This document shows, one piece after another, positions 9,723 through 40,256 of a stretch of DNA of 64,000 nt. A model generated the notes under the pieces. It did not search any database and was not told the DNA's origin. It saw nothing but the letters and a program-made list of their open reading frames with translations. Each line of letters starts with the position of its first letter. Positions within the stretch are counted from its first letter, which is position 1. Source of the stretch: Atribacter laminatus. GTDB taxonomy: Bacteria > Atribacterota > Atribacteria > Atribacterales > Atribacteraceae. Position numbers and translations under genes: made by a program. The stretch is from assembly GCF_015775515.1 (NCBI RefSeq), contig NZ_CP065383.1, positions 248,001 through 312,000 of the forward strand, given 5' to 3'.

Positions 9723-10633
9723 AATAAAGCCTCCCCAGGTAATTTTCTTTCCTAGAATACAATTTCAACCAAATTCCCTTTATATCCATCTCTCCCTTTG
9801 GATAAAGGGAGATAGTTCGGGAATCGATTCGTTACCATTAAATTCAAATCCCCCTTGCCCTCTTTTCTAAAGGAGAAGGTTGATTCTTTAGTATATTTTC
9901 ATTGTCATCCGATGCTGCTAGGCAGCATGAAGGTCTATCCTGAAAATACCATCTTATAAACTCCCCCATTGAGGGGGGATAAAGGGGGGTGTGCCTTTAA
10001 TCGGTCATCCTGAGCCCTCGCTTTTTGAGGGCGTGAGGATCTCATCTTTTAAGTTTTTTCTTCATAAATACTTTAAATGATGAGATTCTTACGTCGTCCG
10101 GCAAAAACACCGGACTCCTCAGAATGACTAAGTGGATGGTAGAGATTGCCACGTCGCACAAGACGCTCCTCGCAATGACGGAGCGGGCGGGTGAGATTGC
10201 CACGTCGCATAGGACGCTCCTCGCAATGACGGAGCAGAAAAAAACTCAAATCTCCCTACCCCTTTGCTAAGGGGGGGGAGATTGGTTCTTGAGTATATAT
10301 TTTCATCCTCATTTGATGTTGCAAAGCAACATAAGGGCTACCCTGAAAAATCACGGGCATGATAAATCAAGCCCCTACCAAAGAATATAACATTGCAGGG
10401 CACAATGTATTGTGCCCATTCTTTAATTCATGTAGCGACATGCCATGGCATGTCGAATCTTGGTTTTTCATCCTCATCTGGTACTGTTAGGCAGCATGAC
10501 CGTCTATCCAATAAAATAGTGAGAAGCGAATTGTCTAAATTTCCCTCTTATCCCAAATTTCTCCCATCAGGGGAGAAGGAACTCTGAATCATCATTGCGA
10601 TAGGCAAAACGAGATAGCAATTGCCTCATTAAA
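9723..10633. repeat. Intergenic island of palindromic repeats
   Basis: 911 bp without a credible gene. It holds at least three hairpin units with TTTTCATCC... and ...TATCC(TGAAAA) ends (about 9897-9946, 10300-10349, 10465-10510) and two tandem GATTGCCACGTCGCA...CTCCTCGCAATGAC units (about 10143-10180 and 10195-10232). It also holds the perfect palindromes GGGCACAATGTATTGTGCCC (10398-10417) and GACATGCCATGGCATGTC (10437-10454), and CCCC/GGGG hairpins around 9963-9990 and 10250-10285. A 246-bp part recurs almost exactly near 41145. The plus-strand frame 10393-10587 is an artefact of these repeats. Confidence 0.75.
9934..10179. repeat. Long dispersed repeat, copy 1
   Basis: Bases 9934-10179 match 41145-41390 over 246 bp. 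By eye I find one substitution (C at 9961, T at 41172). Both copies lie in gene-free gaps in the same orientation, 31,211 bp apart. The unit contains a CCTGAGCCCTCGC...GAGGGCGTGAGGATC hairpin and a GTCCGGCAAAAACACCGGAC hairpin but no ORF, so it is a non-coding, possibly MITE-like or composite element. Confidence 0.85.
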
Positions 10634-20431: not shown

Positions 20432-21097
20432 TTAATAGACAGAAATCTTAAAATATTTTTGAGTGGCGGCAATAAAACCATTCTCTTTGCAAAAAAGGAA
20501 AAAATCCTGAATTTCTCTCTGACTCTTCTCTTTCATTAACTTTCTAACCATGATAGAGGAATTGTTATAAAAATCCAGGACGCCAGACTCGTTGGAATCA
20601 CTACAATTTTCTTTATGGCTGAACATCGGTGATGAAGTAGAAAATAGAAAATGAGCAAAGCCTTCTTCAAACCACTGAGGAAGAATAATACCGTTTTGGT
20701 GAATAACAGCATGGAATAACTCGTGAGATAAAGTATTCTCTAATATACCCTTTTTGAGTAAAAGATGGGGATTTCGAAGATGAATCTCACCTTCTCGATA
20801 CACTGCAGCTGACCAATTAGGAAAGGCATGTTTATGAAAAGTAAAACCATTAGGATGAAGAATGACTCGTATGTTTATTTCTGTATTTAAACCCGTGTAA
20901 AAATAGATGGTATCAGCTGCCCTTTTCAGGCATTGTTCCATCTCTAATTGCGGGTATTGTAATTGACCAGAAAGAGCTACATAGGTCGTGCTCAAACACC
21001 AGGCTGGTGTTGGTATGGTAATTAGTAAAAATACCACTGTAGCAAGCGTCACCCGACGCTTGCTACAGTGGTATTCATCTTCCACTGTTAAATTCAT
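20432..21097 (-). CDS. Secreted HExxH metallopeptidase-like protein (Peptidase MA-like); N-terminus overlaps a perfect palindrome
   Basis: 221 residues. A signal peptide of about 35 residues is followed by a small domain with HELFHAVIH (HExxH zinc site) and, about 20 residues later, EEGFAHF, whose Glu is the likely third ligand, a gluzincin arrangement as in Peptidase_MA proteins. ATG 21097 overlaps the stop of the alpha-2-macroglobulin gene (21075-21077) by 23 bp. Codons 8-22, which give the basic SKRR part and the first hydrophobic residues of the signal, are the 44-bp palindrome at 21031-21074. The start is uncertain, because a GTG at codon 16 would still leave a signal peptide. Confidence 0.75.
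   Translation of the reverse strand: MNLTVEDEYHCSKRRVTLATVVFLLITIPTPAWCLSTTYVALSGQLQYPQLEMEQCLKRAADTIYFYTGLNTEINIRVILHPNGFTFHKHAFPNWSAAVYREGEIHLRNPHLLLKKGILENTLSHELFHAVIHQNGIILPQWFEEGFAHFLFSTSSPMFSHKENCSDSNESGVLDFYNNSSIMVRKLMKEKSQREIQDFFLFCKENGFIAATQKYFKISVY
21031..21074. repeat. Perfect 20-bp inverted repeat (4-nt loop) inside coding sequence
   Basis: The left arm 21031-21050 ATACCACTGTAGCAAGCGTC and right arm 21055-21074 are exact reverse complements around the loop ACCC. It begins just after the alpha-2-macroglobulin stop codon and lies within the signal-peptide codons of the metallopeptidase-like gene. Its TGTAGC...GCTACA borders are shared with the intergenic palindromes at 10431, 40148 and 35380, so it looks like one of those repeats captured in a gene. 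Confidence 0.9.
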
Positions 21098-24000
21098 ACT
21101 CTTTAGAGTACCCCCGTACTTCCGGGAAATACATTAAATAGGCTTGGGTAGGCCGTACATAAAATGAGCCTACATCCCGGACCCTCAGATAGTATCTTAT
21201 CATATTTTCTCCTTCTTCAATACGGGAAACGAAAAGGACAGGAAGCTGGTCATAAATTTTCTTATTGATATAAATTGGAAAATCAGAATTATCGTACACT
21301 TGGTCATCATGAAGCTGGTACACATAATCATTTCGAATCAGTTCAAAGCCGGCAGCCATACCATCTTCTATAACTAAATTATCAAATTGGTAAGGGCTTT
21401 CAATCAGTATCTCGCATACCAACTCATCTCCAGGCAGAAGAGTAGAAATCGCTTCTTTGGTAAAGACAAAATTCCCCTCTTCGTTCTTTATTGGTTTGAG
21501 TTTCCAATAGTTTTTACTCACTTTAATTTGTGAAGAAGGGGGCACGTCGGAGGTAAAACCTCTTATTTTAAACGTCATGAGGTAAACTCCTTCACCAAAC
21601 AATTCAATTCGGTTTTCTCCAGAAAGTAAATTTCCTCCATCCAAATCGATTTTTTTGTTGAAAATACCCGAATCGAATTGACCATCTTCTATTTTCTCCG
21701 AGTTCAGAACGATTTGATAGCGAGCTTCAGAAACCGTTGATTCTTCTTGGAATAGTGAAGCCAGTTTCATAAAATAAGCAACTTCCATGGTATTGATATA
21801 CCAGTCGGATTGAATATTGCGCAGCAGCCAAAGGAAAGCTTTTTCAGCAAGGGGCCGATTCTCTTTATTCAACGCCAAGGTTGCCCAGCATGTCGCTAAA
21901 AACCGATCATCTTCCCAAGGCTTTTCTGGATTGGAATATCCATAAAAAACCGCATCTCCAACTGGTTGTGCTCTTTTTATTAGTTCTTCAAGGAGCCTAT
22001 GTTGGGTATCTCCTTGCGCAACTAAGCTTAACCAGGCAATCTCTTTTGCATCCATCGCCTGCAATCTTTTGTCTATTTCAAAAGAAGTCAGGTCGGTGAT
22101 TTTCTCTCCGGCCTGGCTTAATACATAATAGCTCATGGCTTTCTCCCAAGGAACCAAATCCTTGTTGATATTCATTAAATAAGATTTTGCCTGGAGAATG
22201 GAATTTTCGGAAACCAAATATCCCTTTTCCCGAGCTATGATTAAAGCTAACAGGGCATGAGACGTATTAAAAACATTACTATCATCAAGGTTCCACCAAC
22301 CCCACCCACCATCATAGTGTTGCAAGGCATAGAGTTGATAAATTCCTTCTTGGATTTCTCGTGGTGCGGTTTTGGTCCATTCTAAATTGTCAGGAAGGGG
22401 CAAAGAAAGGAGAGAAATAATTCGACTGGAGGTTTGTTCGGTACAACCATAGGGATAATAATACATATCTTCCATGGTTTGGTAAAAAATGCCATTGAGA
22501 TTTCGATACAAAATACATTCCACCTTGGGTGGGTGATTGAACATTTCCGGTTGATAAACAAAATCGAGACTCCCCTTCCCATCAGAAACAAATGTAGTAA
22601 ATATTTGATCAATCTCAACGCCACGAGGTTTAACCTTTTGAGTGACTTCAATGGCATCTCCCGCAAGTTCGCCCCGTGCATACATTCTGACATAGGGTAA
22701 CCCAGCTTCAATCGCTTGAAATTGGACTGGAATAACTAAATTCTGGTTGGCATCAATCTCCACTTCACGAGGATAGGTTCCGATTTTTATTTCAGAACCG
22801 GTTTGGGCTTCGAGCCGAACTTTTTGCTTCGGATACTCATTCCAAAGGGTCATCTGGGTTTGAAGCGAATCCCCCTTAGAAAGAAATGGAGGCAACTCAA
22901 CCCGGAAAGCAAAAGGACTGGATGTTCTAAAGTTAATAACCGATTCTCCAAATTCATCCGCGGTGTTGGCTCTTACTTCAACTCGCCAACTGGCCAGATT
23001 GTCAGGACAGGTAAACTCAATTTCTGCTTCTCCTTGCTGATTGGTTTTTAGACTTGGCATCCAAAGCAGAGTGTCGGGAAAATATTTTCGCACAGTTGGT
23101 TCCACCGCTCCTCCTCGACCATTCCCCTTGAACTGAGGACGAACATTTTGGACTGTTTCTCCCTGACCATAAAAATACTCGTACCATGATGACTGGGTAT
23201 ATACTTTATTATATAAATTTTCATAATAGTGCTCGAAGATCTTTTCCCACCATTGCCAAGAAATATCAAAAATTGCTTGATCCACTATGGCAATAGAAAA
23301 ATCGCATTGCCTGGGGAGAGAATCACTTCCGAGAATCGTTACTTTAAGGGTTCCTTTTTCTTGAGGAAGGTATACTTCTTTATCGGTTGAAATTTTTACC
23401 AGGAGTTCTCTCTCTGGAATGACTGGAATTTGAATACTTTCATTGTAATAGTTTCCATTATTAAAAGTCGACAAAGTTACATAACAACCTAGTATATAGT
23501 CTTTGGTGATGGGTATTGAAACCTGATAAGGCTCTTTGGCCTTAGATTTCACTTCAATTTGGTGAATTTTCTCTCCCTCAATGGTTAATAAATGAGGAAA
23601 TTCCTCAGTTACCGGGGGAACTACAAGAAGATTCGCAGTTTCACCGACTTTATATTCTTTTTTGTCAAGATGAAGTTCTATTCCTGTGGTTGGAAGATAA
23701 AACCCGGATCCGGTGACATAAAAAGTATCAGAGGCGGTAATGGTATTCCCTTTTTCATCGCGAGTCTGGCAGGCCAAACGATAATATCCTGGTTTCTCCA
23801 TGGCAAAATCAATATCGGCCTTCCCGTTGACAACTTCAAAGGAAAAAAGCTTTACCGATTTTTCATTCCAATCTTTCTTTTCTTTATCCCAAGTCAAAAG
23901 ATATATTGTTGCGTAAACTTTTCCAACATCCACTTTTTTTTCTTCAGCATCATAAGCTTCAATAGTGTATTGGAGATTTTGATTGACTCCAACAAAATAG

Positions 24001-25529
24001 CGATCGGACTTAAGAAGTAGAGCAAAATCTCCCATCAAAACTTTTACATGTGCGGTTTTTTGCACTCCTCGATAAGCGGCATCAAATACTCCGACCTGCA
24101 CCTCATACCAGTAAGCATTCCCCTCTACTTCGGGAACAAAAGATATTTCTGCTTCCCCATTTTCATCAAGAGTTCCAGTATTTTCTTCAACCATTTCGCT
24201 CTGACTACCATATCTCCAGTAATACATTGGGTAGCGAAGGACTTGATAGCGAAATGTTCCAGGAGTAAGCGGTTGTCCAGAATAATAATTCGCCTGAATT
24301 CTGACTGTCACTGTTTCGCGATTGGCATAAGTTTCTTTTTCAGTTTTTATTTCAGCCTCAAAGGATGGTTTTTCGTAGTTTTCAATGGATACCATCCGAT
24401 AGAAATCGCTATTTTTCCAAGATAACTTAATCAAATAATCTCCTTCATCAAGAGACATTGGAAGGTCAAACCAGGACGATAGATTTCCATGCTCATCAGA
24501 AACCAGTTCGGTACTGGCATAGATATTATCACGATAATCAGTTAGAAAGGCTTTCACTTTCTCACCAGGAGGAGGTGCAATATAACTGGTTGCTAATTTT
24601 TCTCGTAACAGAGATTTAAAATAAACTCGCTGACCAGGTTTGTAAAGCGGTCTTTCAGTATAGATAAAAACATCCAGTTTAGACCTGGTATCTAAATAAT
24701 AAGGATAAATATTCATAAAAGCATATTCTTTATCCCTTTGAGCCATGAGGGTCATTTCATTTGGCTTCAAGTCGGTTCTGGACCAAAGACCTTCAGAATT
24801 GGTTTCTCCTTCGCTGACCACTTGATTTTTTTCTAATAACCTCATCCGAACCTTCTCTAAAATTTGCCCACTTTTTCGGTCTTGAACAAATACCATCATC
24901 TGGTTTTGATCAATTTTGGATATGAGAGACAACCGGGTAATGGAAAAAATAACCCGAGCTTCTTTGCCTCCACCCGCAGCAGTAAGAAGATAAACACCTT
25001 CTTGAAGTGGATTGAGAGTGATGGTTTGATAGGTATAGGAAGAATCTTTGGAATAGCGGATTTCTTGTAACCAACTTTTCAGCAGTGAAGAGTTACGGTG
25101 ATAATCATCACTGGTAATTTCAATTGGACGGGTGGGGATTGAACCTTCAATTCCTAAAATATCTTTTAAACTCTGTTTAAGACTTGGAGAAAGTACTTTG
25201 GAGGCAATCCCTCGTAGTGATTGGAAAAAACTAAATTTTAAATTTTGCCAATTTTCCTGCTTATTCAGTGGTCTCTTCGGTCTCCAGGTATCAACTGAGA
25301 AAAAATATTCTTTATTGCTTTCTAAGATATAGCTTCCCGGATCATCAATACGAAACAACGACATTTGAAGACTTTTGATTTCGCTCACATTAACCCTTGC
25401 TTCTATTGATTCACCCGGATAGATATGAGCCGGTACACTCAGTGAGATATATGGAGAAGCAAACGAACTTCCCGATAAAAAAATAAATACAGTTAAAAAA
25501 ATGAAACTAATCCAGGATAAGAGTTTCAA
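21075..25529 (-). CDS. Bacterial alpha-2-macroglobulin family protein with thioester
   Basis: 1484 residues, typical of the YfaS-like class. A signal peptide (MKLLSWISFIFLTVFIFLSGSSFAS) is followed by a series of MG beta-domains (YTERPLYKPGQRVYFKS, DKKEYKVGETANLLV, DKEVYLPQEKGTLKV). A bait-like segment (about 740-830, aromatic and Gly-rich) precedes PDTLLWMPSLKTNQQGEAEIEFTCPDNLASWRVEVRA. The thioester motif GCTEQ has Cys1029 and Gln1032. A terpenoid-cyclase-like domain follows (HYDGGWGWW). Such proteins trap proteases in the periplasm or at the cell surface. It has no lipobox Cys. It sits directly downstream of a DUF1175 gene, as yfaS does beside yfaT in E. coli. The mechanism here is inferred from the family. 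Confidence 0.95.
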   Translation of the reverse strand: MKLLSWISFIFLTVFIFLSGSSFASPYISLSVPAHIYPGESIEARVNVSEIKSLQMSLFRIDDPGSYILESNKEYFFSVDTWRPKRPLNKQENWQNLKFSFFQSLRGIASKVLSPSLKQSLKDILGIEGSIPTRPIEITSDDYHRNSSLLKSWLQEIRYSKDSSYTYQTITLNPLQEGVYLLTAAGGGKEARVIFSITRLSLISKIDQNQMMVFVQDRKSGQILEKVRMRLLEKNQVVSEGETNSEGLWSRTDLKPNEMTLMAQRDKEYAFMNIYPYYLDTRSKLDVFIYTERPLYKPGQRVYFKSLLREKLATSYIAPPPGEKVKAFLTDYRDNIYASTELVSDEHGNLSSWFDLPMSLDEGDYLIKLSWKNSDFYRMVSIENYEKPSFEAEIKTEKETYANRETVTVRIQANYYSGQPLTPGTFRYQVLRYPMYYWRYGSQSEMVEENTGTLDENGEAEISFVPEVEGNAYWYEVQVGVFDAAYRGVQKTAHVKVLMGDFALLLKSDRYFVGVNQNLQYTIEAYDAEEKKVDVGKVYATIYLLTWDKEKKDWNEKSVKLFSFEVVNGKADIDFAMEKPGYYRLACQTRDEKGNTITASDTFYVTGSGFYLPTTGIELHLDKKEYKVGETANLLVVPPVTEEFPHLLTIEGEKIHQIEVKSKAKEPYQVSIPITKDYILGCYVTLSTFNNGNYYNESIQIPVIPERELLVKISTDKEVYLPQEKGTLKVTILGSDSLPRQCDFSIAIVDQAIFDISWQWWEKIFEHYYENLYNKVYTQSSWYEYFYGQGETVQNVRPQFKGNGRGGAVEPTVRKYFPDTLLWMPSLKTNQQGEAEIEFTCPDNLASWRVEVRANTADEFGESVINFRTSSPFAFRVELPPFLSKGDSLQTQMTLWNEYPKQKVRLEAQTGSEIKIGTYPREVEIDANQNLVIPVQFQAIEAGLPYVRMYARGELAGDAIEVTQKVKPRGVEIDQIFTTFVSDGKGSLDFVYQPEMFNHPPKVECILYRNLNGIFYQTMEDMYYYPYGCTEQTSSRIISLLSLPLPDNLEWTKTAPREIQEGIYQLYALQHYDGGWGWWNLDDSNVFNTSHALLALIIAREKGYLVSENSILQAKSYLMNINKDLVPWEKAMSYYVLSQAGEKITDLTSFEIDKRLQAMDAKEIAWLSLVAQGDTQHRLLEELIKRAQPVGDAVFYGYSNPEKPWEDDRFLATCWATLALNKENRPLAEKAFLWLLRNIQSDWYINTMEVAYFMKLASLFQEESTVSEARYQIVLNSEKIEDGQFDSGIFNKKIDLDGGNLLSGENRIELFGEGVYLMTFKIRGFTSDVPPSSQIKVSKNYWKLKPIKNEEGNFVFTKEAISTLLPGDELVCEILIESPYQFDNLVIEDGMAAGFELIRNDYVYQLHDDQVYDNSDFPIYINKKIYDQLPVLFVSRIEEGENMIRYYLRVRDVGSFYVRPTQAYLMYFPEVRGYSKEYEFNSGR

Positions 25530-25587
25530 GAATCTCCCTCCTTCGGGCTTATCTTTCTAATCATTTAAACCAAGGTTATAATATTTG

Positions 25588-27764
<2,177 letters not shown>

Positions 27765-35308: not shown

Positions 35309-35507
35309 ATTCTTAGGTCACATCGTGCCATAAATGAAAATGAAAATCCAAGATTCGACATGTCATGGTATGTCGCTACATTAATCGAGCATAATAAATT
35401 GCGACCCTACAGTTTCTTAAATCTTTTGTAGGGGCTTGATTGGTTATGGGCTTTCAAAGCAGTATTTTTGGATATTGCACACTACTTCATGACCTATGGT
35501 TTTATAT
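35309..35507. repeat. Short gap with palindromic repeats
   Basis: Bases 35357-35380 hold an inverted, slightly diverged copy of the GACATGCCATGGCATGTC palindrome ending in GCTACA. Bases 35385-35406 hold a degraded TGCAATTTATTGCA-type unit. Bases 35430-35452 hold AGGGGCTTGATT. The order is the reverse of the array at 40083-40172, as if the whole block were copied in inverted orientation. Confidence 0.65.
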
Positions 35508-39638: not shown

Positions 39639-40256
39639 GTTTTATTCCTCTCTTTCTTCAATGATTTTTTGATTACCTTTCTAGTCTTTAAATATAGTGA
39701 AAAGTAAGTTATGAATTATGAATAGAAAAAATTCATCATCACAATTTTCTCCCATTTCTCTTTTTTCCTCTCCCCCTGGTGGGAGAGGATGAAGGTGAGG
39801 GAGATGCTTGGATATCACCCACAAACATATTTTTAAATACCTAATCCTAGATCTAAATCCTGTCTTTCGCCCTCATCCTAACCTTCTCCCATCGAGGGAG
39901 AAGGAATATTAGAGGTCATCCTAAGGCTTCGGTTTTCGAAGCTGTAAGGATCTTATCTTTTCATTTTTTTTTACTATTACTTCTCCCTTTGGATAAAGGG
40001 AGAGATTGATTTCTGAATAAGTATTTTCATTGTCTTCTCATGCCACCAAAGTGGAATGAGGTTCTATCCTATAACCTATCTAGGGGCTTGATTAATCAAG
40101 CCCTTTCAATAGATTTCGTAGGGGTGCAATTTATTGCACCCGTTTAATGTAGCGACATGCCATGGCATGTCGGAATCTTAGGCCTTCATCCTCAACCGGT
40201 GTTTCGCAACGGTAGTGATGTCTATCCTGCTATATCTTTCCCTTTATAATGAGAAA
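39639..40256. repeat. Intergenic island of palindromic repeats
   Basis: 618 bp without genes. It contains a CCTCTCCCCCTGGTGGGAGAGG unit (39767-39790), a CTTCTCCCATCGAGGGAGAAGG unit (39882-39904), a CATCCTAAGG...GAAGCTGTAAGGATC hairpin (39916-39955), a TTTTCATTGTC...TTCTATCCT unit (40024-40070), and the perfect palindromes GGGCTTGATTAATCAAGCCC (40084-40103), GGGTGCAATTTATTGCACCC (40122-40141) and GACATGCCATGGCATGTC (40154-40171). A further ...TCTATCCTGC unit ends near 40230. It separates the GntR gene from the operon it probably controls. Confidence 0.75.

Follow-up and report, generated by a model that had tools for sequence, protein, structure and literature searches.

A conserved RNA-level hairpin at the stop codon of an alpha-2-macroglobulin gene is overprinted by signal-peptide codons of the next gene in Atribacter laminatus

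The window analyzed here, a 64,000 nt stretch of the Atribacter laminatus genome (3.10 Mb, single contig), contains a perfect 21 bp hairpin that starts at the stop codon of a secreted alpha-2-macroglobulin (A2M) gene and lies within the signal-peptide codons of the following gene for a secreted metallopeptidase-like protein. The hairpin is conserved at the RNA level, is present in a single copy per genome and is inherited vertically. We propose, with a probability of roughly 55%, that it is an intercistronic dosage element at the 3' end of the A2M message, acting as a partial intrinsic terminator and/or as a nuclease barrier or cut site.

The features of the locus are listed in Table 1. The product of the A2M gene, a protease trap, comprises the bait region, MG2, A2M, and bMG10 domains. 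The N-terminus of the peptidase, MNLTVEDEYHCSKRRVTLATVVFLLITIPTPAWC, is a signal peptide, and the domain behind it contains SHELFHAVIH and WFEEG (HELFH..EEG), by its residues a zinc metallopeptidase pattern. No Pfam family over the cut-off was found for the peptidase ORF, and the only resemblance was weak, to the active sites of M1 aminopeptidases (in a PDB search) and of SprT-like proteins. The peptidase gene starts 20 nt ahead of the A2M stop, and the first base of the hairpin is the final base of the A2M TGA. An earlier note on this DNA had placed the palindrome at the A2M stop and inside an ORF, where it would encode the basic residues and the first hydrophobic residues of the signal peptide, and all of this was confirmed. 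The stretch from 20432 to 26568 of the window forms a neighborhood of DUF1175, A2M, and secreted metallopeptidase-like genes.

Table 1. Position of the features in the window.
Feature	Position	Strand	Remarks
Hairpin	21030..21075	(-)	mRNA-sense AATACCACTGTAGCAAGCGTC-GGGT-GACGCTTGCTACAGTGGTATT; perfect inverted repeat, 21 bp, 4-nt loop
Loop-proximal 10 bp	21041..21064	(-)	93% of pair cells retained over ten family genomes
U-rich tail GTATTTTTAC beyond last G-C pair	21025..21034	(-)	terminator-like; gene strand only
Upstream gene, secreted A2M	21075..25529	(-)	thioester motif CTEQ; stop TGA 21077-21075
Downstream gene, secreted metallopeptidase-like, 221 aa	20432..21097	(-)	start ATG 21097-21095; +1 frame relative to A2M
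Coding overlap A2M/peptidase, 23 nt	21075..21097	(-)	no synonymous change in first seven peptidase codons, six congeners
Signal peptide, codons 1-34	20996..21097	(-)	assigned by eye; codons 8-22 form the hairpin
DUF1175/NlpC-P60-like gene	25588..26568	(-)	upstream of A2M, same neighborhood

The arms of the hairpin are exact and the loop has 4 nt, as the earlier note had described, while the arm length had to be corrected from 20 to 21 bp. Its predicted folding energy is -37.2 kcal/mol, and it is the longest perfect hairpin of the window. A 464-kb sample of this genome contained three perfect hairpins of at least 21 bp, this one included. The pattern TGTAGCN{10,30}GCTACA occurred once, and it did not occur in shuffled sequences. 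Within the same sample we surveyed 172 junctions of co-directional genes with a gap of ≤100 nt to the next gene. The structure 3' of the A2M stop was the most stable of all (-39.0 kcal/mol; runner-up -28.8), and the A2M-peptidase junction was the sole one below -20 kcal/mol with overlapping genes. No Rfam family scored above its gathering score anywhere in the window.

Peptidase orthologues were present in 10 of 10 genomes of the family, each following and overlapping A2M in the +1 frame. All six congeners formed 21 of 21 pairs (126/126 pair cells), preserved through compensatory changes, and the pairs that varied were C-G/U-A (columns 11-48), C-G/U-A/U-G (26-33), G-C/G-U/A-U (19-40), and A-U/G-U (22-37). 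At pair 19-40 the change in G004 involves two amino-acid replacements, Ser to Asn together with Ala to Val. The sister genus (G008) showed 15 consecutive pairs with a U-run after them. In G006, G007, and G009 a short upper stem was found and the lower stem was absent. This upper stem exceeded the expectation given by the peptide in G007 (P 0.0007) and G009 (P 0.008) and did not exceed it in G006 (P about 0.07), so that a family-wide claim depends on G007 and G009 only. The predicted energy of the upper 10 bp was between -14.7 and -18.5 kcal/mol across seven genomes. The loop sequence was not conserved.

The peptide alone lifts the expected pairing to about 13/21, and this would favor the view that protein constraint or chance produced a peptide that happens to be encoded by a palindrome. 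However, when the sequence of G000, the genome of the window, was recoded synonymously by codon usage with the peptide fixed, 21 pairs were never reached in 200,000 trials, and the same-peptide codon randomization for each of the six congeners gave 21 pairs in 0 of 60,000 trials. Together with the covariation, these results contradict such an origin, which we regard as extremely improbable. No orthologue in the genus was found to encode the same peptide by synonymous codons that leave the stem unpaired.

Synonymous divergence among the congeners was 0 in the first seven peptidase codons and 0.097 in the hairpin, compared to an average of 0.252 elsewhere in the gene. The lowest 15-codon window elsewhere in the peptidase gene had a value of 0.043. 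Low synonymous change by itself is therefore no proof of constraint on the hairpin, whereas the pairing is. For the last 20 A2M codons the value was 0.077, which is low partly because of the overlap. The final A2M codons ahead of the overlap (window 21098-21140) belong to this unusually conserved part, and they perhaps hold ribosome-binding signals for the peptidase (CGGGGGTACTCTAAAGAG).

On the mRNA strand, the seven species that carry the long hairpin showed four wobbles, all of them G-U, and no A-C pair. The restriction to G-U points to a constraint at the RNA level, although the sample is small and the observation is supportive only. A DNA-level palindrome, i.e., an operator for a dimeric regulator, a cruciform or a recombination site, would fit the perfect symmetry and, if conserved, would likewise show paired changes. 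It does not account for wobbles that are of the G-U type on the mRNA strand only, for a single site per genome fixed at a stop codon, or for a U-run that is confined to the gene strand, and we consider it unlikely. From the covariation, the codon randomization, and the G-U wobbles we concluded, on the basis of sequence comparison, that the hairpin is an RNA-level element that is vertically inherited and co-evolving. The structure of the hairpin and its conservation are solid, although independent double changes are few and only seven genomes carry the full form.

The earlier note had taken the palindrome for a REP-like element and suggested that further copies might be found in genes. REP elements and the palindromic elements of Rickettsia share the palindromic nature with the hairpin, and those of Rickettsia can sit in frame within genes. 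Both are dispersed in many copies, in contrast to the hairpin with its single copy and vertical inheritance. A search with a covariance model of the hairpin hit this locus alone in every one of the seven genomes, and the further 43 genomes of the phylum that were searched gave no significant hit. Thus, 7 of 7 carriers have one copy and not the dispersed multiple copies that characterize REP elements, and the search for further copies in genes returned none. The orthologues align without gaps through the hairpin site, and no empty site indicating an insertion was seen.

A resident REP-like family with the core CGACATGCCATGGCATGTCG occupies 117 places in G000 and 1-40 in the congeners; it was not found in the other genera of the family. 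G008 has the hairpin and lacks this repeat family. The only letters common to the family and the hairpin are the hexamer TGTAGC at one border. The notion that the borders TGTAGC/GCTACA are shared with intergenic palindromes therefore held in part: TGTAGC is found at one border of the three palindromes at 10436-10455, 35356-35375, and 40153-40172, but the other border and the core (CGACATGCCATGGCATGTCG) differ, and beyond these six letters they are unlike the hairpin. An inserted REP-like or Rickettsia-type element that supplied the signal peptide would agree with an in-frame palindrome in a coding region and with a hexamer common to dispersed palindromes. It was ruled out by the single copy, the vertical inheritance, the covariation, and the lack of kinship to the 117-copy family, and relatives without the hairpin still have the signal peptide; we give this origin hardly any probability. 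A mobile-repeat origin should not be assumed for perfect palindromes in coding regions.

Two dispersed REP-like palindromes were recorded in the window as such. The first, TGTAG-CGACATGCCATGGCATGTCG, is genus-specific and expanded here (10431-10455, 35356-35380, and 40148-40172). The second, TTTTTTCCTCTCCCCTGGTGGGAGAGGATTAAGGTGAGGGGG, is located at 2680-2700 and 39767-39788, and also at L113:7046-7066.

We also compared the gene overlap and the export signal in more distant relatives. Three families of the order share the adjacency of A2M and peptidase genes. In family f2 (G019, G021, G022, and G024) the start of the peptidase precedes the A2M stop by about 31 nt, the frame is likewise +1, and the protein has an ordinary signal peptide (MEKKRIWWWN...); in f3 (G011) the overlap consists of ATGA; the hairpin is absent from both. 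The genera g2 and g3, which belong to the same family as the window's genome, have the signal peptide and lack the 21 bp palindrome. Since the f2 and f3 relatives have overlap and signal without the hairpin, both are likely older than the hairpin, as judged from these sequences. The suggestion that the palindrome created the export signal is not compatible with signal peptides in the A2M-overlapping peptidases of f2, f3, g2, and g3. The absence of the lower stem from G006, G007, and G009 implies that the gene pair as such can do without the strong form, which counts against the proposed dosage role.

A start of the peptidase downstream of the palindrome was considered and rejected. In G007 the stretch from the upstream TTG to the hydrophobic core has no in-frame ATG, GTG, or TTG, and likewise no such start was noted in a coarser reading of G009. 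Within the genus the loop codon varies between GTG, TTG, and CTG, which argues against a conserved downstream start. The upstream one of the two starts that the earlier note had left to choose from is thus supported.

The favored dosage element would work as follows. The start of the peptidase gene lies 20 nt ahead of the A2M stop, and for this reason the hairpin of the A2M 3' end is overprinted by signal-peptide codons. We infer termination or processing at this site, its direction, and its relief by translation. A block at the hairpin would leave more A2M message than A2M-peptidase message. After a cut or termination, A2M would remain intact and the peptidase message would be headless or absent, so that more A2M than peptidase would be expected. 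By the usual size of ribosome footprints, a ribosome positioned on the A2M stop would cover the lower part of the 5' arm, about half of it. A ribosome terminating on A2M would hence allow the upper 10 bp or more to fold, while one already translating the peptidase would have to melt the hairpin, and the block would be relieved. A positive loop between peptidase translation and completion of the transcript could result.

The features of the hairpin agree in part with an intrinsic terminator. On the transcribed strand the G+C-rich stem runs directly into a U-rich tract, which an A interrupts. Terminator scoring on the gene strand classified the structure as terminator-like, with 20 pairs, 10 of them G-C, and the tail TTTTACTAAT, and across the seven long-hairpin genomes the tail has 5-7 T per 10. 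On the other hand, 21 bp is long for a terminator, and together with the A that breaks the tail GTATTTTTAC this points against termination. The U-run may simply derive from F, L, and V codons of the signal peptide. With regard to processing, RNase III is encoded in the genome. Other strong hairpins are located just 3' of stop codons within operons of this genome.

Similar arrangements are known from Clostridia, where the stoichiometry of operons is set by internal terminators that combine long stems with paired U-tracts (PMC9045158) and by stem-loops that follow a gene (PMC4423207). SRPS stem-loops, e.g., in the cip-cel operon of Clostridium cellulolyticum (PMC4423207, PMC10311766), directly follow an upstream operon gene as stable structures, and unequal dosage was proposed for them. 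The hairpin likewise is a stable stem-loop directly 3' of a gene in a putative operon. While SRPS stem-loops are intergenic or in the 3'-UTR, the stem described here also forms codons 8-22 of the next gene. The internal intrinsic terminators in ABC-transporter operons of cellulolytic Clostridia resemble the hairpin in their long stems, modest U content, and paired U-tract, and also in their location after the gene for the more abundant product; they are found in relatively long intergenic regions of about 90 bp or more (PMC9045158), whereas the genes overlap by 23 nt here.

A more specific form of this mechanism is a self-relieved intragenic attenuator, in which the A2M message is ended by an intrinsic terminator or a hairpin sensitive to nucleases. 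The early codons of the next gene would hold this element, and the transcript would be continued only by a ribosome that is already translating this gene. Terminator hairpins can be prevented by ribosomes (PMC12548453, PMC5021804), and we consider this form tentative. If true, initiation on the peptidase gene would license its own transcription, and RNA pairing would have shaped the evolution of the signal peptide, with paired replacements such as S to N with A to V.

Alternatively, the hairpin could be a pure translational gate that slows early elongation on the peptidase gene or controls backward reinitiation and leaves transcription and RNA stability unaffected. This would be in line with the overlap conserved in ten family genomes, in each of which the start precedes the stop and the frame is +1, and with the weak Shine-Dalgarno sequence of the peptidase gene in the genus. 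A structure right after the upstream stop codon also reduces coupling (reviewed in PMC12548453). However, the stem begins at +23, beyond the initiation footprint, and the start region is not sequestered. In the PvuII C/R genes, with an overlap also of about 20 nt, no role was found for the overlap or for hairpins, which are weak there (PMC2997769). We regard a pure gate as a possible but doubtful explanation. Like translationally coupled overlapping pairs (PMC12548453), the gene pair has a start upstream of the preceding stop, conserved in the ten family genomes and the f2 and f3 relatives and thus across the order. The known inhibitory structures of coupled pairs usually cover the downstream ribosome-binding site, while the structure described here is downstream of the start. 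The earlier proposal of a translational gate or mRNA processing site, i.e., of a regulatory RNA element, thus held in outline and remains the best class of explanation, with the specific mechanism being a proposal.

The position of the hairpin directly 3' of a conserved UGA, with a second in-frame stop after three sense codons in 10 of 10 genomes, could also suggest a bacterial SECIS element for selenocysteine or a frameshift stimulator that fuses A2M to the peptidase. No match for SelB or tRNA-Sec over the cut-off was obtained in the ten family genomes, which excluded selenocysteine insertion at the A2M UGA; hits below it probably represent other translation factors and tRNAs. Moreover, the loop is variable in sequence, and readthrough would add a few residues only. 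A frameshift fusion is unlikely, as it requires +1 slippage, for which no slippery site is known, and the fused product would contain an internal membrane segment. Taken together, a recoding role has a negligible probability. The second stop (TAG or TAA; window 21063-21077) is also present in those family genomes that lack the long hairpin.

A conserved hairpin that doubles as a coding segment of the downstream gene was a combination not found in a limited literature search. An RNA structure that is kept by compensatory, amino-acid-changing substitutions in an export signal represents a clear case of RNA constraint on a signal peptide. The hairpin is also a concrete candidate for a dosage switch of a bacterial A2M and the peptidase that partners it, and hardly any regulation is known from this phylum.

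Other hairpins were noted in the sampled genome. A perfect hairpin between two co-directional genes (L108:10482-10514; TAACCCTCCATGGTTTCAAGCCATGGAGGGTTA on the gene strand) holds a Shine-Dalgarno-like GGAGGG in its 3' arm and may gate the next gene by sequestration. Two perfect 22 bp hairpins of unrelated sequence (L113:12821-12867 and L108:12015-12061), one of them 37 nt upstream of a 423-aa ORF, are possible operators or attenuators.
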